DNA of 64,000 nt from Clostridia bacterium (GTDB taxonomy: Bacteria; Bacillota; Thermoanaerobacteria; Thermoanaerobacterales; Thermoanaerobacteraceae): the NCBI GenBank assembly GCA_012840485.1, contig DULG01000054.1, positions 1 to 64,000 on the forward strand. The letters are read 5' to 3'. Shown in pieces: positions 4,028-38,067 of this stretch. Every line of letters starts with the position of its first letter. Position 1 is the first letter of the stretch. The notes under the pieces were generated by a model. It saw nothing but the letters and a program-made list of their open reading frames with translations, ran no database searches and had not been told where the DNA came from. A program made the position numbers and the translations under genes.

Positions 4028-4042
4028 TTAATCAACAACTTA

Positions 4043-4168
4043 ATCGTTATCGCTGAACCCGAAAAGGGGCGGGGGACCCACCTTTTGGGGCGAATCTCTT
4101 CCTACGGGAAGAGTAGGGTTACTCCTTCGACCCGAGCCCGTCAGCTAACCTCGCAAGCGTGGGAAGGA
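4043..4168 (+). promoter_or_regulatory. c-di-AMP riboswitch (ydaO/yuaA leader)
   Basis: The leader carries the recognisable ydaO/yuaA core: CGCTGAACCCGAAAAGGGGC followed by GGGGGACCCA, then GGGGCGAATC, and the 3' block TCGACCCGAGCCCGTCAGCT with AACCTCG. This class binds cyclic di-AMP and normally turns genes off. A terminator lies immediately 3', and the next gene is an oligopeptide-binding lipoprotein, so c-di-AMP should reduce peptide uptake. With its promoter and terminator it accounts for the 346-base gap 3912-4257. Confidence 0.9.
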
Positions 4169-4169
4169 G

Positions 4170-4207
4170 AAATATCCAGGACCGCTGGATATTTCGGCGG
4201 CCTTTTT
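4170..4207 (+). terminator. terminator / expression platform of c-di-AMP riboswitch
   Basis: Two mutually exclusive hairpins are visible. AAATATCCAG (4170-4179) pairs with CTGGATATTT (4185-4194). AGGACCGC (4178-4185) pairs, with one bulge, with GCGGCCT (4197-4203) and is followed at once by a T run (4203-4207). The second has the terminator shape. Confidence 0.75.
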
Positions 4208-9897: not shown

Positions 9898-9926
9898 TTG
9901 TTATTTTATCAAAAAAATATTATAAT
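9898..9926 (+). promoter_or_regulatory. promoter of fluoride-riboswitch operon
   Basis: TTGTTA (9898-9903), 17-base spacer, TATAAT (9921-9926). Start of transcription is expected near 9933, about 18 bases before the riboswitch. Confidence 0.7.
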
Positions 9927-9950
9927 ACAGTTAAAAAGATAAAAGTGCAT

Positions 9951-9997
9951 AAGGTGATGAAGCTCACCTAATTGCCGTGAAGGCTGATGGCTTCTAC
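9951..9997 (+). promoter_or_regulatory. fluoride riboswitch (crcB motif) no. 1
   Basis: Matches the crcB motif. GGTGATGAAGCTCACC forms the first stem-loop, TTGCC...GGC the second stem, then GGCTGATGGCTTCTAC. The GAAGC of loop 1 can form the pseudoknot with GCTTC. Fluoride binding stabilises the pseudoknot and should prevent the overlapping terminator. The downstream operon contains an MFS transporter rather than a CrcB or CLC-F exporter. Confidence 0.92.
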
Positions 9998-10020
9998 GCG
10001 CTTTCGTAGAAGCCATTTTT
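9989..10020 (+). terminator. terminator controlled by fluoride riboswitch 1
   Basis: GGCTTCTACG (9989-9998) pairs perfectly with CGTAGAAGCC (10005-10014), followed by ATTTTT. The 5' arm is the same GCTTC stretch used by the riboswitch pseudoknot, so terminator and ligand-bound aptamer exclude each other. Confidence 0.9.
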
Positions 10021-10056
10021 CGTTTATTTGGCAAAAAAGAGAGGGTGGGAATTTAT

Positions 10057-10713
10057 ATGAAGTTAGAGTTTATTCCATTGTATGAAGTTTTTGAAAAATA
10101 TAAGGGAGGTTGTCCAATATGCAAGATTATAAAAGATGAGGAAAAAGCCTATTGTTGGCGTTTGTTTGAAGATGAGATTTTAAAAGACCCTGAAATGTAT
10201 GTCAAAATAAGTAAGACAAATTTTTGCCATTATCATTTAGAATTATTGAATAATTCATATGATAAATTGGGTTTGGCAATTGCATTAAAAGCAAATATCA
10301 GTCACAAATTACAACAAATTATGGAGAAACGTAAGTTTTCAAAGAAGAAAAGAGGGATAGAAACAAAAAGTAAATGCCTTGTTTGTGATTATTTAAGTGA
10401 AAGAGATAAATACCAGATGCATATATTGATAGATATTTTGCATGCTGATAAAGATTTTATTGAAAGGCACCATGAAGGGTTGTCTAAATTATGTTTTCAT
10501 CACCTCAATATGCTTCTGGAAGTTGCAAAGGACACCACGCCACAAATTGAGAAAATAATTGAAATAAACAAAGCTTTAATTGAAAAGAATATAAGTGATC
10601 TCGAATGGTTTATAACAAAATTTGATTATAGATTTCAGGATGAACCATGGTATGACTCTAAGGATTCGATTGAAAGAGCATTGAAATTATTAAAGGGTGG
10701 TTATTATGATTAA
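10057..10713 (+). CDS. Cys/His-rich protein, DUF6062-like
   Basis: First gene after fluoride riboswitch 1, about 218 residues, probably soluble. It has two similar halves, each with CxxC followed by a Cys-His cluster: CPIC near residue 18 with FCHYH near 55, and CLVC near 108 with LCFHH near 146. This looks like a duplicated metal (zinc) site and resembles DUF6062 proteins from memory; the match is not certain. ATG 10057 follows GAGGGTGGG at 10041-10049. It is followed by four same-strand genes with overlaps or short gaps, so it is co-transcribed. Function unknown; inferred link to fluoride response only through the riboswitch. Confidence 0.7.
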   Translation: MKLEFIPLYEVFEKYKGGCPICKIIKDEEKAYCWRLFEDEILKDPEMYVKISKTNFCHYHLELLNNSYDKLGLAIALKANISHKLQQIMEKRKFSKKKRGIETKSKCLVCDYLSERDKYQMHILIDILHADKDFIERHHEGLSKLCFHHLNMLLEVAKDTTPQIEKIIEINKALIEKNISDLEWFITKFDYRFQDEPWYDSKDSIERALKLLKGGYYD

Positions 10714-11035
10714 AATTTCTTTTGACATTACTGAAGAAAGTTTTGAAGAAGTTAGGGAATTAATTGGGAATTTTAAAAAAGATGGTTTTACGGAAGAAGA
10801 TGCATACAGGTCAATTTTTGAAATGGGGATTAAAGCATATCAAATAGAACGGGATAACCCTAATGAAGATGATTTAAGAAGGCAGCTTATTGCTATGGCG
10901 TCTAAATATTCTGCAATGAAATTTAAAAATTTCCAGTTGATGCGCGAGAATCAAACACTTGAAATAAGATTAAAAGGTTATGAGGCTGAAAATAGATATC
11001 TTAAAGAAACTTTAGGTATAAGGGTTGATGAATGA
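10706..11035 (+). CDS. small strand-helix-helix plus coiled-coil protein, unknown function
   Basis: About 109 residues. A short beta strand (IKISFDI) and two helices (about residues 10-45) are reminiscent of ribbon-helix-helix proteins. A charged coiled coil follows (about residues 55-105, RRQLIAMASKYSAMKFKNFQ and onward). The gene overlaps the end of the previous gene by 8 bases and its stop codon overlaps the next start, so it is translationally coupled. A DNA-binding or scaffold role is possible but not shown; no family was recognised with confidence. Confidence 0.6.
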   Translation: MIKISFDITEESFEEVRELIGNFKKDGFTEEDAYRSIFEMGIKAYQIERDNPNEDDLRRQLIAMASKYSAMKFKNFQLMRENQTLEIRLKGYEAENRYLKETLGIRVDE

Positions 11036-11445
11036 TGAGATATATATGTCCTGTGTGTTTTAAAATAGCTGAAATTGGAGAAGAAAAGTGTTCCAACTGT
11101 GGCTATGACTTTAAAAATATATCAAATGATGATTACAGTGAAAAACTCATAAAAGCCGTAAATCATCCAGATTATAATGTGGCTTATATGGCAGCAAAAA
11201 TAATTGGAGAGCTTAAAATAAAGAAAGCAGAAGAAGCATTGATAGAACATTTACGCAATAATGGGGGTAAAAGGGACCCATATATTGAGGAGGTTATTGT
11301 GTGGGCTCTTGGAGAGATTGGCGGAGAAAAGTCTCACAGGTTTCTTTTAGAAAACAAAGATAAATTCTCAGTTTTAACAAAAAATATCATTGAAAATTCT
11401 TTGGAGAAAATTAAATTTAGAATTGCAAATAAGGAGGATGAGTAA
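11032..11445 (+). CDS. zinc ribbon plus HEAT-repeat protein, unknown function
   Basis: 137 residues. The N-terminal zinc ribbon has CPVC (residues 6-9) and CSNC (20-23). It is followed by HEAT-like helical repeats (about residues 38-125) with the motifs DYNVAYMAAKIIGELK and YIEEVIVWALGEIGGEKS. Such proteins usually serve as protein-protein adaptors. ATG 11032 overlaps the TGA of the upstream gene. Its 3' end carries the GGAGG that serves the following MFS gene. Confidence 0.65.
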   Translation: MMRYICPVCFKIAEIGEEKCSNCGYDFKNISNDDYSEKLIKAVNHPDYNVAYMAAKIIGELKIKKAEEALIEHLRNNGGKRDPYIEEVIVWALGEIGGEKSHRFLLENKDKFSVLTKNIIENSLEKIKFRIANKEDE

Positions 11446-11446
11446 A

Positions 11447-12634
11447 TTGGAAAATAAGGGAATAAAAAACAATGAGAATAATAACATTAAAATTTTGGGT
11501 TGGGTTGCATTTTTTGGCGGATTAAGTCAGGATATGATTGTACCTATTTTGCCTACTTTTTATACTCAAATTCTCGGTCTAAGTAAAGAAATGGTAGGGT
11601 TAATAGAGGGAAGTGTCACTACAGTTGTCAGCATTATGAGAATAATATCCGGAATAATTTCAGATAAAATTGGAAAAAGGAAATCTATTGTGTTTATTGG
11701 ATATCTATTCTCTGCCATTGGAAGAGTATTACTGCCATTGACGAATGGTGCTGCCATGGCTTTTGGGTTGAGACTGGTTGATGGTATTGGAAAAGGTACA
11801 AAAGATGCGCCGAGAGATGCACTTGTTGCAAAATCTTCTAAAATGAAAAATATGGGCTTTTCGTTTGGATTTCAAAGAATGCTTGACACATTAGGTTCCT
11901 TCCTTGGGCCATTGATTACTGCCGGTTTAATGCTCTTGTTTGCCAAATATATAGATTCTATAAAGTACAGATTAATATTTTTGATTGCTGGCCTTGTAGC
12001 TTTTATCACAATAATCCTCATAGGTTTATTTGTAGTGGAGCAAAAGGGTGAAAGAGTAAGTTCATCTTTCAAATTAGATTTGTCTGTTTTTAAGGGAAAA
12101 TTTCTGCTGTTTTTCATTGTAATGCTTATATTTACCCTTGGCAACAGTAGTGATGCATTTTTGATTTTAAGAGCACGCAGTGTTGGTGTAAAAGATTCAA
12201 CGATACCGATAATTATAGCTATGTTTAATCTGTTTTATGCTTTATTATCAGTACCAAGTGGAGTATTATCTGACAAAATAGGAAGAGTTAATGTAATAAG
12301 GTTAGGTTGGATTATTTATGCAGTTACATATCTCGGTTTTGCATTAGCAAAATTGCCGTGGCATATTTGGGTTTTGTACGCGATATATGGGGTTTACTAT
12401 TCAACAACGGAAGGTGTTGCAAAGTCTCTTGTTGCACATATAGTCGATGATAGTAATAGAGGAACTGCATTTGGGCTGTATAATGCATCGATGGGACTAC
12501 TCGCACTTCCCGCAAGTTTTATTGCTGGATATTTGTGGGATAATGTATCTCCTGCTGCACCCTTTTACTTTGGAGCATTATGTTCCATAATGGCAGTTGT
12601 TTTAATAACACTGTTTAAAATTGAAAAAAGTTAA
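11447..12634 (+). CDS. MFS transporter in fluoride-riboswitch operon
   Basis: Major facilitator protein of about 395 residues with 12 predicted helices. Motif A-type loops appear twice (ISDKIGKRKS near residue 60, LSDKIGRVNV near 270), and there is a DGIGKGTKDAPRDAL loop between helices 4 and 5. It is a likely proton-coupled exporter. TTG 11447 is placed 9 bases after GGAGG (11433-11437); the in-frame ATG 11438 abuts that site. As the only transporter under fluoride riboswitch 1 it is the obvious candidate for moving fluoride or a related toxic ion. That is inference, because known fluoride exporters are CrcB/Fluc and CLC-F. Confidence 0.85.
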   Translation: MENKGIKNNENNNIKILGWVAFFGGLSQDMIVPILPTFYTQILGLSKEMVGLIEGSVTTVVSIMRIISGIISDKIGKRKSIVFIGYLFSAIGRVLLPLTNGAAMAFGLRLVDGIGKGTKDAPRDALVAKSSKMKNMGFSFGFQRMLDTLGSFLGPLITAGLMLLFAKYIDSIKYRLIFLIAGLVAFITIILIGLFVVEQKGERVSSSFKLDLSVFKGKFLLFFIVMLIFTLGNSSDAFLILRARSVGVKDSTIPIIIAMFNLFYALLSVPSGVLSDKIGRVNVIRLGWIIYAVTYLGFALAKLPWHIWVLYAIYGVYYSTTEGVAKSLVAHIVDDSNRGTAFGLYNASMGLLALPASFIAGYLWDNVSPAAPFYFGALCSIMAVVLITLFKIEKS

Positions 12635-12650
12635 AAGGGGGATGAGAGAA

Positions 12651-13520
12651 ATGCCGTCTGATATAGATTCCTGGGCAAGAAATGTGAGAGACTACAGTGA
12701 AATTCCAGAAATATTTAAATCGTATTATGATGAAAACTTTGGGAAATCAACCCAGTTTTTAAATGCTGTATATGCTCCTGCTGATAGCTGGGGCAGAAGA
12801 AAGACAAACGATAAATTCATGTTTTTGTATGAAAATGAAGTGGTTTTTTTCGAAAAAATGAAAAATAGTATTAATGCTGTTTCATATCCTATTGAAAATA
12901 TTAATTATATTGAAAATGGATCTATATTGTTATACTCATGGTTAAAAATAAACGGTAACATAGAAGATGAGACAAGATCGTTTGTGCTTGAGTATAACAC
13001 TGTTGTAGAAAATATATTTAAGCCTATAATTGAAAAATTACGCATTTTATTATGTGATATAGAAATGTCTAATAAAGAAGGAGAAATAAATGACTTTGAC
13101 TGTTTGAGAGATGTAAATTACAAGTTTATGAATTATGCCAAAAAAGCTGTATTAAATGGCGAAAAAGTAATAGATTTTTTATATCAAGTTGATATAAAAG
13201 TTCCTTACTTTAAATTCTTCAAAAAATTAAAATCAACTTCTCATATGATTATATTTACAAATAAAGAATTAATAATACTAGAAGAAGAGAGTGTAAAGTC
13301 CACAAAAGATGCAAAATATGGTGGTATATGGATTTATATCCCTTTATATAAGATTTTAAGTGCTTGTATTGATAAGGAAGAAAATGGTTTTTTAAATTTA
13401 GTTATTAATATATCCGGTTCTAATACTTTTAAATCTACATTTGAACATTCAAAGAAAGAAGAAATTGAACAATTAGCTGAACGAATTAACAAAGTAGCAA
13501 GATATAATATAGTATCATGA
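12651..13520 (+). CDS. PH-like domain protein, unknown function
   Basis: About 289 residues, last gene of the fluoride operon. It shows two regions rich in beta strands ending in a helix, as in bacterial PH-like domains: about residues 45-115 (DKFMFLYENEVVFFEKM) and about 185-285 (HMIIFTNKELIILEEE). A helical linker lies between them. There is no signal peptide or membrane helix. ATG 12651 has AAGGGGG (12634-12641) at good spacing; ATG 12642 is too close. Role unknown. Confidence 0.6.
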   Translation: MPSDIDSWARNVRDYSEIPEIFKSYYDENFGKSTQFLNAVYAPADSWGRRKTNDKFMFLYENEVVFFEKMKNSINAVSYPIENINYIENGSILLYSWLKINGNIEDETRSFVLEYNTVVENIFKPIIEKLRILLCDIEMSNKEGEINDFDCLRDVNYKFMNYAKKAVLNGEKVIDFLYQVDIKVPYFKFFKKLKSTSHMIIFTNKELIILEEESVKSTKDAKYGGIWIYIPLYKILSACIDKEENGFLNLVINISGSNTFKSTFEHSKKEEIEQLAERINKVARYNIVS

Positions 13521-13537
13521 TTTTGTGAAAAGTTTTA

Positions 13538-13570
13538 GAATGTCAACCGTATTGTAAACGGTTGACATTC
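13538..13570 (+). terminator. inverted repeat, probable end of fluoride operon
   Basis: GAATGTCAACCGT (13538-13550) pairs with ACGGTTGACATTC (13558-13570), 13 perfect pairs. No good T run follows, so it may act as an imperfect terminator or 3' stabiliser. Confidence 0.55.
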
Positions 13571-13635
13571 TATCAGAGCATAAGTGGTCCTTTGATTTTA
13601 AAATTACAAGAGAAACAGCTTAAACTTTAGTTTAC

Positions 13636-15544: not shown

Positions 15545-15565
15545 GATATTGACAATTGTATAAAA

Positions 15566-15610
15566 AGTGATGGAACTCACTTCAACCGCCGAAAGGCTGA
15601 TAGTTCCTAC
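15566..15610 (+). promoter_or_regulatory. fluoride riboswitch (crcB motif) no. 2, first of a tandem pair
   Basis: AGTGATGGAACTCACT stem-loop, AACCGCC...GGC stem, and GGCTGATAGTTCCTAC match the crcB motif closely. GGAACT in loop 1 can pair with AGTTCC. The 3' strand is shared with a terminator. Confidence 0.92.
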
Positions 15611-15646
15611 TTGGTGTAAAAGCCAGTAGGAACTATTTTGCTTTTT
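15602..15646 (+). terminator. terminator controlled by fluoride riboswitch 2
   Basis: AGTTCCTAC (15602-15610) pairs with GTAGGAACT (15626-15634), followed by ATTTTGCTTTTT. It competes with the aptamer pseudoknot. Confidence 0.88.
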
Positions 15647-15696
15647 AGGGGGTGATAGCAAAAAGGGATGGATATTGAGTGCTATAAAATTATTAC

Positions 15697-15741
15697 AGCG
15701 ATGGAGCTCGCTTAATGCACTAAGATGCTGATAGCTCCTAC
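15697..15741 (+). promoter_or_regulatory. fluoride riboswitch (crcB motif) no. 3, second of the pair
   Basis: AGCGATGGAGCTCGCT stem-loop, TGC...GCTGATAGCTCCTACC; GGAGCT can pair with AGCTCC. No terminator follows. Instead CTCCTA of the aptamer is complementary to TAGGAG of the antiporter ribosome site (15766-15771). Without fluoride this would hide the start; with fluoride the pseudoknot releases it. A translational output is therefore inferred. Confidence 0.88.
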
Positions 15742-15780
15742 CGTTATAGAGCCAAATAATGAAATTAGGAGGTTATACTA

Positions 15781-16917
15781 ATGTGGCTGACTTACAGTTG
15801 GTGGTTGGGTTTAGCTTTAATAGCAGGATTAATTGCAGATTGGACAGGTATATCAATATCCTTGATTGAGATTTTGGTAGGGGTTATTGCCGGTAATTAT
15901 TTGGGTTTGCAAACAAATGATTGGGTAAATTTTCTGGGAGGCGTTGGAAGCATTTTCTTAACGTTTTTAGCTGGGGCAGAAGTTGATCCAGTAGTCTTAA
16001 AATCGAAGTTTAAAGAAAGTGTCACAATAGGGCTTTTAGCTTTTATTTTCCCTTTTGCCGGGGCATTTGCTTTTACTTACTTTGTGGCGGGATGGACATT
16101 GCAGGCATCCGAAATTGCGGGTATTGCCCTTTCAACAACTTCCGTTGCAGTAGTATATGCTGTAATGGTGGAAAGCGGACTTAATGAGAGCGAACTTGGT
16201 AAAATTATTTTAGCTGCTTGTTTTATAAATGACCTTGGAACAGTTTTAATGCTTGGAATTTTGTTTGCGAACTATAATAAATGGATGCTGTTGTTTATAG
16301 TTGTTACAGCAATAATAACTGTGCTTATGCCTTCAGTTACAAAAGAATTTTTTAAAGTATATGGCAATAAAGTAGGTCAGTTGGAGATAAAATATTTATT
16401 TTTCCTGGTGTTTTTAACAGGTGGTTTAGCGTCAATGGCAAACAGTGAAGCCGTCCTTCCAGCATATATACTTGGCTTAGCGGTGTCAGGGTTCTTTATG
16501 AAGGAAAAAAACTTGTTGTTCCGTATGCGTGCAATAGCATTTGCAATTTTTACACCTTTTTACTTTTTAAAAGCAGGATTGTTTGTTTCTATTCCAGGTG
16601 TAATCTCAAATATCCTCTTAATTGTGGTACTGCTTTTGATTAAAATTGCAACAAAATATATAGGCGTCAAACCTACTACAATGATATTTAAATTTTCTAA
16701 AAGAGAAGGAATGTATACAACACTTCTAATGTCTACAGGACTTACCTTTGGAACGATTTCTGCGATGTTTGGATTATCACATAACATAATAACGGCAGAC
16801 CAATACACTGTTCTTGTTACTGTAGTTATTTTAAGCGCAATTATACCCACCTTGATTGCAGAAAGGTTTTACAGGCCAGAAACAGATAATTTAATTGGAG
16901 GTGGAGAAAATGTTTAA
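15781..16917 (+). CDS. cation/proton antiporter (CPA2, KefB/NapA-like)
   Basis: 378 residues, about 11-12 hydrophobic helices. The Na+/H+ exchanger fold is indicated by FINDLGTVLMLGILFA with its conserved Asp (about residue 157) and AEVDPVVLK near 75. It exchanges a monovalent cation for protons across the membrane. It sits under tandem fluoride riboswitches, fitting the known association of this antiporter type with fluoride response; it probably restores pH or ion balance when HF enters the cell. TTAGGAGG at 15765-15772 fixes ATG 15781. Overlaps uspA by 8 bases. Confidence 0.9.
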   Translation: MWLTYSWWLGLALIAGLIADWTGISISLIEILVGVIAGNYLGLQTNDWVNFLGGVGSIFLTFLAGAEVDPVVLKSKFKESVTIGLLAFIFPFAGAFAFTYFVAGWTLQASEIAGIALSTTSVAVVYAVMVESGLNESELGKIILAACFINDLGTVLMLGILFANYNKWMLLFIVVTAIITVLMPSVTKEFFKVYGNKVGQLEIKYLFFLVFLTGGLASMANSEAVLPAYILGLAVSGFFMKEKNLLFRMRAIAFAIFTPFYFLKAGLFVSIPGVISNILLIVVLLLIKIATKYIGVKPTTMIFKFSKREGMYTTLLMSTGLTFGTISAMFGLSHNIITADQYTVLVTVVILSAIIPTLIAERFYRPETDNLIGGGENV

Positions 16918-17332
16918 AAGAATTTTACTCGCATATGATGGCTCAGAATACGCAAATAAAGCCTATGAATATGTTTTGGAATTAGCGCAAATAAATGGTG
17001 GTTCTGAGGTGTATTTAATTTCCGTTGCCAATATCCCGGAATTTGTAAATTCAAAAGATGAAGTGGATGAAGCCTTAAATGCAGCAAAATTATATTATGG
17101 AAAAATTCTTGGCAATGCGCGAAAATTGGCTAATGAAAAGGGGATAAAAATATTTACAGAGGTGATACCGGGTCATCCTGTAGATTCAGTAATTCGCTTT
17201 GCGGAAAAGCATGAGTGTGACTTGATTGTTGTAGGGGAGAAAGGTACCAGCGGTGTAAAAAGGTATATTATTGGTAATGTAGCAGAAAATATAGCAAGGC
17301 ATGCAAAATGTTCTGTTCTCATTGTGAAGTAG
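16910..17332 (+). CDS. universal stress protein, UspA family
   Basis: About 140 residues. N-terminal KRILLAYDGSEYANKA, and the C-terminal nucleotide loop GEKGTSG with the following GNVAENI fits the ATP-binding type. GGAGGTGGAG (16897-16906) supports ATG 16910 inside the end of the antiporter gene, so expression is coupled. UspA genes are recurrent neighbours of fluoride riboswitches; here it may regulate the antiporter, which is inference. Confidence 0.9.
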   Translation: MFKRILLAYDGSEYANKAYEYVLELAQINGGSEVYLISVANIPEFVNSKDEVDEALNAAKLYYGKILGNARKLANEKGIKIFTEVIPGHPVDSVIRFAEKHECDLIVVGEKGTSGVKRYIIGNVAENIARHAKCSVLIVK

Positions 17333-29506: not shown

Positions 29507-30805
29507 TTGTTAAGGGTTGTCCATTATTTAAATCAGTTTTTTGGGCAAATTGGAGGAGAGGACAAAGCCTCAATTCCGCCCATGGTAAAAGAAGGACCGG
29601 TAGGTCCGGGAATGGCTTTTAAAGGTTCTTTTGGTGATAAAGCAGAGATTGTAGCAACAGTAATTTGTGGAGACAGCTATTTTAATGAAAATATTGAAAA
29701 GGCTACAGAAGAAATTCTTCAGATGATTGAAAAATACAAGCCGGATGTTTTTATAGCAGGTCCTGCTTTTAACGCAGGGAGATATGGCACGGCCTGTGGG
29801 ACAATATGCAAAGCCGTCCAAGACAAATTTGGCATTCCGGCAGTAACTGGAATGTATCCTGAAAATCCAGGTGTTGACTTGTATAAGAAAAATGTGTACA
29901 TCATAAAGACTACAGATTCAGCGGCAGGAATGAAGGATGCAGTAGCCAAAATGGCAAAACTGACTTTGAAATTAGGCTTTAAGGAAAACATAGGGGCACA
30001 TGAAGAAGAAGGCTATATACCAAGAGGGATGAGAAAAAATATCTTTGTAGTGGAAAGAGGTTCTAAAAGAGCGGTGGAAATGCTCATCAAAAAACTAAAG
30101 GGGGAGCCTTTTACAACAGAATATCCTATGCCAGATTTTGATAGAGTTTCTCCTGCCAAGGCTGTAAAAGTAAAAGAATCTCTCATTGCTCTTGTTACTT
30201 CAGGAGGAATTGTCCCTAAGGGAAATCCTGACCATATTGAATCTTCCAATGCTTCTAAGTACGGGAAATATGTTATAGAAGGAATAGATAATTTAACAAA
30301 TAAGACCCATGAAACAGCTCATGGAGGATATGACCCTGTGTATGCCAATGAAGACCCTGATAGGGTGCTTCCTGTTGATGTGTTAAGAGAATTAGAAAGA
30401 GAAGGCAAAATAGGTAAACTTTATAGATATTACTATGCAACTGTAGGGAATGGTACTGCTGTTGCAAGTGCTAAAAAATATGCTCAAAGTATAGCTAAAG
30501 AACTTATTGCCGATGGAGTAAAGGCTGTTATTCTTACCTCTACCTGAGGAACCTGTACTCGTTGCGGTGCAACGATGGTAAAGGAATTAGAAAGAGCAGG
30601 TATCCCTACTGTTCACATTTGTACTATAGTTCCAATATCAAAAACAGTAGGAGCAAATAGAATTGTGCCGGCGGTGGCTATACCCCATCCATTAGGTAAT
30701 CCTTCTCTTGGGTTTAAAGAGGAATACGCTTTAAGAAAAAAATTAATAGAGAAAGCGTTGAAAGCTCTGGAAACAGATATAGAAAGTCAGACAGTCTTTG
30801 AATAA
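29507..30805 (+). CDS. grdB: glycine reductase component B gamma, selenoprotein (Sec at 347)
   Basis: 432 residues. TTG start 29507 sits after GGAGGAGG and gives MLRVVHYLNQFFGQIGGED, the family N-terminus. In-frame UGA at 30545-30547 in LTSTUGTCTRCGA is selenocysteine. The hairpin CGTTGC-GGT-GCAACG (30560-30574), 12 bases after the UGA, is the likely SECIS. The selenocysteine adds to glycine bound to the pyruvoyl group. Confidence 0.95.
30560..30574 (+). promoter_or_regulatory. bacterial SECIS hairpin in grdB
   Basis: Six-pair stem CGTTGC / GCAACG with loop GGT starting 12 bases after the UGA. This is the position and apical G-U loop expected for SelB binding. Confidence 0.7.
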
Positions 30806-37972: not shown

Positions 37973-38067
37973 TGGCGGGAGTATGTGGGAATCGAACCCA
38001 CCTCTCGCCTTTTAGGCGAGAAGCTAGATTTGAAGTCTAGTAGGCACACCAGCACCTATCTACTCCC
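37973..38067 (-). tRNA. selC: tRNA-Sec (anticodon UCA)
   Basis: 95 bases including encoded CCA. The minus-strand anticodon loop is CTTCAAA (anticodon TCA). The extra arm is very long (CTCGCC TAAA GGCGAG), the T arm is GTGGG TTCGATT CCCAC, and the acceptor GGGAGTA pairs with TACTCCC. It lies opposite in direction to selB. Confidence 0.96.

Follow-up and report, generated by a model that had tools for sequence, protein, structure and literature searches.

A fluoride-riboswitch operon encoding a conserved major facilitator protein as candidate fluoride exporter in a Clostridia bacterium

The DNA considered here is a stretch of 64,000 nt on contig DULG01000054.1 of a thermophilic Clostridia bacterium (the window, to which all positions refer unless a sampled locus is named), in which five genes follow a fluoride riboswitch. 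Judging from sequence comparison, these genes may form a fluoride-inducible resistance operon, and the most likely role of their central product, a transporter of the major facilitator superfamily (MFS), would be that of a proton-coupled fluoride efflux pump; this reading is preferred tentatively, with somewhat less than even confidence. The transporter belongs to a clade referred to here as MFS-a, which recurs beside fluoride riboswitches and is encoded in genomes in which neither CrcB nor CLC proteins were found. Conceivably, MFS-a even represents a further family of exporters for fluoride in bacteria, the third and unrelated to the other two, i.e. a riboswitch-controlled fluoride/proton antiporter that occurs in several phyla and is the sole fluoride exporter in some thermophilic Bacillota, a wider claim that is put forward with more reserve still. 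Sampled genomes and loci carry G and L codes, respectively, G000 being the genome of the window itself.

The riboswitch and the genes behind it

The leader of the operon combines an aptamer of the crcB motif with an intrinsic terminator (Table 1). Both in the window and in relatives, the expression platform is linked to the aptamer in that the terminator stem uses the aptamer 3' strand, and the terminators of G014 and L083 consist of different bases that still match this strand. The minimum free energy (MFE) fold of aptamer plus terminator contains the terminator (-31.7 kcal/mol). Since terminator and aptamer share the 3' strand, fluoride binding should allow read-through, and an ON switch is expected. 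Without fluoride, the leader would form the terminator, while binding of Mg-fluoride would hold the aptamer and lead to read-through, as can be expected from the architecture together with established work on this riboswitch class. Sites resembling -35 and -10 elements, the candidate promoter TTGTTA-17-TATAAT ahead of the aptamer included, are no more frequent in this AT-rich region than in shuffled sequence.

All five genes behind the riboswitch are co-directional and intact in the window, and as neighbours overlap or are separated by gaps of 1-17 nt, they fit one operon. They encode, in this order, a DUF6062 protein, a small ribbon-helix-helix-like (RHH-like) protein, a zinc ribbon and HEAT repeat protein (ZnHEAT), the MFS-a transporter and a PH-like protein. 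No CrcB (PF02537) or CLC (PF00654) domain was found in any of the five. The original prediction, which had described a crcB-motif riboswitch with a terminator, a single operon devoid of recognised fluoride genes, a duplicated Cys/His protein as its first product, a zinc ribbon-HEAT protein and an MFS transporter, was well founded in all these respects. Its view of the last gene product as a double PH-like protein holds, at a sub-threshold score, for the C-terminal half, a second PH domain being unsupported. The small protein of 109 residues matched no Pfam, NCBIfam or PHROG family; helices span residues 10-25, 30-50 and 54-103 of its structural model, and a ribbon-helix-helix topology fits this low-confidence model, with no profile match. 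A phage or defence origin of the operon was rejected, as neither PHROG nor PADLOC gave a match.

The five genes were also rejected as a single conserved system. Homologues of the PH-like protein were found in the window's genus and, beyond it, solely on a contig of a metagenome-assembled genome (MAG) that carries a 97% identical MFS, and the RHH-like gene occurs only in near relatives; homologues of ZnHEAT adjoin MFS-a in other lineages too. A strong link to fluoride is seen for the MFS, often together with ZnHEAT, and for DUF6062. The predicted undescribed fluoride system is partly supported, in that these three recur in riboswitch clusters far beyond the genus, and unsupported insofar as it was taken to comprise all five genes as a conserved set. 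The fluoride riboswitch terminator and the DUF6062 gene of Thermoanaerobacter wiegelii are separated by an inserted group II intron (L073:4837-5596). Past the last gene of the window operon, an inverted repeat (GAATGTCAACCGT/ACGGTTGACATTC, 13535-13575), without a clear T run, is a possible operon end.

The MFS-a clade and its link to fluoride riboswitches

A profile built from the window MFS and its close relatives retrieved 22 MFS loci from 85,000 species genomes, 20 of which fall inside clade MFS-a, while two Terriglobia matches (L092, L093) lie outside. The hosts of MFS-a belong to the Bacillota and Chloroflexota, along with a single genome each from Armatimonadota and Holophagaceae and one that is unclassified. 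The clade is well delimited: it is monophyletic in the tree (27/27, support 1.0), and full-length members retrieved from the class and the phylum scored at least 604 bits, as compared with at most 361 bits for other MFS proteins. Several invariant residues separate MFS-a from its paralogues, i.e. W18, G23, G24, Q27 and D28 in transmembrane helix (TM) 1, K118 and D119 near TM4, as well as Q142 and S150 in TM5 (helices assigned by eye). The window protein displays a clear motif A, SGIISDKIGKRK, and a motif C-like stretch, GSFLGPLITAG, both read by eye on the alignment. By sequence, its closest solved structure is the efflux pump NorA, a DHA1-type drug/H+ antiporter with which it shares the MFS_1 fold; motif A and the motif C-like stretch would fit such antiporters, the likeness to NorA is remote (E about 1e-6), and MFS-a differs in its own invariant TM1 residues and its fluoride-cluster context. 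Proton-coupled efflux by MFS-a may be deduced from motif A, the motif C-like stretch and the remote resemblance to NorA.

A fluoride riboswitch was found in the fetched flank of about 20 of the 29 distinct MFS-a loci, an approximate hand count over flanks of varying length; the question of whether homologues mostly lack the riboswitch, raised by the original prediction, is hence answered in the negative for MFS-a. Where the upstream flank of a Bacillota locus is uncut, a riboswitch is present in 17 of 18 cases. None of the 20 nearest MFS paralogues carries a fluoride riboswitch within 3 kb (Fisher p 3.5e-7 for MFS-a versus paralogues, a value that ignores kinship and the wider MFS-a flanks), and plain MFS paralogy was rejected as the source of the association on account of this control. 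A hand count in the phylum sample points in the same direction, with at least 6 of 7 MFS-a genes beside a fluoride riboswitch versus about 4 of 72 paralogues among the matches listed. MFS-a is the first gene after the aptamer in L082 and G035.

Near MFS-a, a recurring set of cluster genes encodes enolase, DUF190, two MutS_V proteins, a dynamin-family GTPase, a CPA2 antiporter and a universal stress protein (USP), as well as ZnHEAT, DUF6062, a second MFS with a ChrB_N protein and, sometimes, CrcB. Most of these genes stand together in G034, where a 13 kb island contains four riboswitches (three above the gathering threshold, the fourth below), one ahead of each of the sub-operons MutS_V-MutS_V, antiporter-USP-dynamin, enolase-MFSb and small protein-ZnHEAT-MFS-a. 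The last of these corresponds to the core of the window operon. Antiporters and enolase (PMC11139923) and mutS (PMC2864571) are already known from the fluoride riboswitch regulon, according to the available parts of these papers. The window shares with this regulon the aptamer family, the ON architecture with overlapping terminator, and a nearby antiporter, USP and MutS, with enolase in relatives; in contrast, those parts of PMC11139923 and PMC2864571 name no class of DUF6062, RHH-like, ZnHEAT, MFS-a or PH-like proteins. In the open literature, searched mainly by title and abstract, nothing was found that links MFS proteins to fluoride riboswitches or fluoride export; the primary gene lists of 2012, which may include an MFS class, were outside the scope of this search.

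Two further families were observed in fluoride-riboswitch clusters. One is the dynamin-family GTPase (PF00350, about 590 residues; L067:3378-5147, L147:6268-8028 and L057:1-1068, the last assigned from its N-terminus only), which may indicate that the response to fluoride includes membrane maintenance. The other is MFSb, a distinct second MFS family that is accompanied by a ChrB_N protein at some loci (L080:2456-4179, L147:9652-10839, L105:6384-7646).

Genomes without known exporters and competing explanations

The class sample comprises 37 genomes and was searched for CrcB, CLC and MFS-a; CrcB was found in 31 of them and CLC in two of the remaining six. Neither was found in G000, G022, G023 and G030, the last being a fragmented MAG of 89% completeness; for the window genome, which is 100% complete, this result comes from a whole-genome search with PF02537 and PF00654. 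All four genomes contain an MFS-a gene (hypergeometric p 0.0075, uncorrected for kinship). Outside the class, CrcB is present in the majority of the MFS-a genomes searched, although G329 (98% complete) and several MAGs are MFS-a genomes in which likewise neither exporter was found. Loss of CrcB to an assembly gap was rejected: at the site where G017 carries a riboswitch and two crcB genes between recR and an HD gene, the congeners G000, G022 and G023 have an empty intergenic region of about 150 bp, with both flanking genes adjacent on one contig and no crcB or riboswitch remnant, so that the absence is real. The outgroup genus G016 likewise lacks the crcB pair at this site, so that a single gain of the pair, later than the divergence of G000, is probable, and the individual absences do not count as independent events. 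In four of the seven crcB-bearing congeners, the MFS was lost by internal deletion, which fits a redundancy of MFS and CrcB.

Taken together, MFS-a would be the dedicated transporter of the fluoride regulon and the central operon product, exporting fluoride as a proton-coupled pump, with efflux direction, proton coupling and substrate all deduced, and it would take the place of Fluc/CrcB and CLC-F where a strain has neither. The DUF6062, ZnHEAT, RHH-like and PH-like proteins may be accessory, perhaps with metal-binding or regulatory functions. MFS-a occupies the same niche as Fluc/CrcB, directly under fluoride riboswitches and sometimes in the same cluster, but its 12-helix MFS fold is unrelated; with CLC-F it would share proton-driven fluoride export under riboswitch control, again as a member of an unrelated family. 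The exporter role given to the MFS protein in the original prediction is plausible.

A number of points weigh against such a role. No MFS protein is known to carry fluoride, and several Chloroflexota MFS-a loci have no riboswitch at the gathering threshold. The exporter-less genomes are related and reflect few independent events. CrcB is present in 15 of the 26 MFS-a genomes searched and is clustered with MFS-a in L080 and L091, which argues that MFS-a is often an addition rather than a substitute. Moreover, the MFS-a gene of G023 (L053:3041-3139) diverges from its relatives at about residue 317, 80 nt before the contig end, and is probably interrupted by an insertion; this exporter-less genome, whose contig matches Caldanaerobacter subterraneus DSM 13054, may have no working MFS-a and could be a natural knock-out.

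The nearest alternative is that MFS-a exports other toxic species generated by fluoride. More generally, it could belong to the fluoride regulon and yet carry another solute, be it a metal ion, a metabolite that builds up once fluoride has blocked enolase or phosphatases, or cations or protons that serve pH homeostasis, as with the neighbouring antiporter. This main rival is a serious possibility, to be given about the same guarded credence as the third-family claim. It would account for the predominance of damage-response genes among the neighbours of MFS-a (enolase, MutS_V, USP, antiporter, dynamin-like GTPase) and for the many MFS-a genomes that contain CrcB, and MFS families mostly transport organic solutes; it is harder to reconcile with the retention of an MFS-a gene in each of the four class genomes that have neither CrcB nor CLC and with the repeated loss of the MFS in crcB-bearing relatives, as if the functions overlapped. 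It is very unlikely that a real leader precedes an operon that is decaying, or carried along by chance, and now plays no part in the handling of fluoride. Deletions and frameshifts do erode the operon in several congeners, for example by frameshifts in two accessory genes of G022, and the leader of T. wiegelii hosts the intron mentioned above; yet in the window each of the five has remained intact, and the clade-wide riboswitch association is kept in several phyla.

DUF6062, the neighbouring fluoride locus and implications

An alignment of 41 DUF6062 proteins contains only eight invariant columns, C19, C22, C57 and H60 as well as C107, C110, C146 and H149, all of which are present in the window protein. 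Its AlphaFold model is confident (predicted local distance difference test score, pLDDT, 91.9) and all-helical; searches of the PDB (best E 0.24) and of a viral structure library returned no matching fold. DUF6062 may bind metal at the two CxxC...CxxH sites. No mention of the family was found in the open literature, and it comes without a described function. In a phylum sample taken outside the window's class, a fluoride riboswitch lies within 5 kb of 15 of 40 DUF6062 loci, against a chance expectation roughly estimated at about 1% or lower, and the gene that comes first after the riboswitch is often DUF6062 (in the window's genus, L105, L109, L121 and L131). The other 25 loci have no fluoride riboswitch nearby, so the family is not restricted to fluoride.

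These observations also bear on the idea that the accessory proteins carry the main function, with DUF6062 and ZnHEAT forming a complex for protection or repair that depends on a metal or on Mg-fluoride. The frequent position of DUF6062 right behind the riboswitch and its eight invariant Cys/His residues are in line with such a complex, while the absence of DUF6062 from several MFS-a clusters (L080, L082, L147) and its many loci away from fluoride riboswitches speak against it, and overall it appears unlikely. For the metal-dependent sensor or adaptor complex that the original prediction assigned to the non-transporter proteins, no evidence was found.

Table 1. Features of the fluoride operon and of the adjacent fluoride locus in the window
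Feature	Position	Strand	Basis
Candidate sigma-70-type promoter TTGTTA-17-TATAAT	9898..9926	+	consensus scan, 10/12 matches; such sites no more frequent than in shuffles
Fluoride riboswitch aptamer (crcB motif, RF01734)	9944..10003	+	45.1 bits, gathering 34, E 2.8e-9 over 64 kb
Intrinsic terminator overlapping aptamer 3' strand	9986..10022	+	13-pair stem 9986-10017, then TTTTT
DUF6062 protein of 218 aa with two putative metal sites, CxxC...CxxH	10057..10713	+	PF19538, 131 bits
Small protein, 109 aa, strand-helix-helix and long coiled coil, RHH-like	10706..11035	+	model, pLDDT 73
ZnHEAT protein	11032..11445	+	PF13646 (HEAT_2), 38.6 bits; zinc ribbon sub-threshold
MFS transporter, clade MFS-a, TTG start	11447..12634	+	MFS_1 PF07690, 155 bits
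PH-like protein	12651..13520	+	bPH_1, 21.5 bits, sub-threshold, C-terminal half only
Second fluoride riboswitch, with terminator	15557..15616	+	47.7 bits
Third, tandem fluoride aptamer ahead of antiporter start	15688..15747	+	31.7 bits, below gathering
CPA2-type Na+/H+ exchanger, same fluoride regulon	15781..16917	+	PF00999, 127.8 bits
USP after antiporter	16910..17332	+	open reading frame; homologues follow antiporter in fluoride clusters

A second fluoride locus, whose tandem aptamers were absent from the earlier finding, lies downstream and precedes a CPA2 antiporter and a USP gene (Table 1); a fourth aptamer is located elsewhere in the window genome, ahead of a MutS-like gene. Within 15557-15785, the second tandem aptamer contains CUCCUA, which is complementary to the Shine-Dalgarno region UAGGAG of the antiporter gene. 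This suggests a combined transcriptional and translational control of the antiporter. Tandem aptamers also occur in G019, G022 and G030, and in MFE folds of the tandem leaders the Shine-Dalgarno pairing is not clear in every copy.

The antiporter itself, or another unrecognised protein, might be the exporter in crcB-less strains, with MFS-a assisting. Fluoride aptamers precede the antiporter in G000, G022 and others, and Na+/H+ antiporters are known as common members of the fluoride regulon (PMC11139923). Nevertheless, this explanation is improbable, slightly more so than a protection complex of accessory proteins, in view of the same antiporter family in clusters or genomes with CrcB (L091, G034) and of the accepted role of antiporters in the regulon, which according to the same source is pH homeostasis.

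Directly upstream of the fluoride operon lies an oligopeptide ABC transporter operon, ahead of which a c-di-AMP riboswitch is found (4041-4174). The window further contains a SECIS_4 element (30548-30585) and a selenocysteine tRNA (37977-38067), and selenoproteins are likely to be encoded nearby.

A genome that has fluoride riboswitches but neither exporter poses the direct question of what removes fluoride, and a conserved transporter clade tied to the riboswitch, as is MFS-a, provides a named candidate exporter. In addition, DUF6062 and the zinc-ribbon/HEAT family are added to the fluoride response. Should MFS-a indeed transport fluoride, it would represent a novel way of exporting the smallest halide selectively and would be a tool for engineering organofluorine metabolism.

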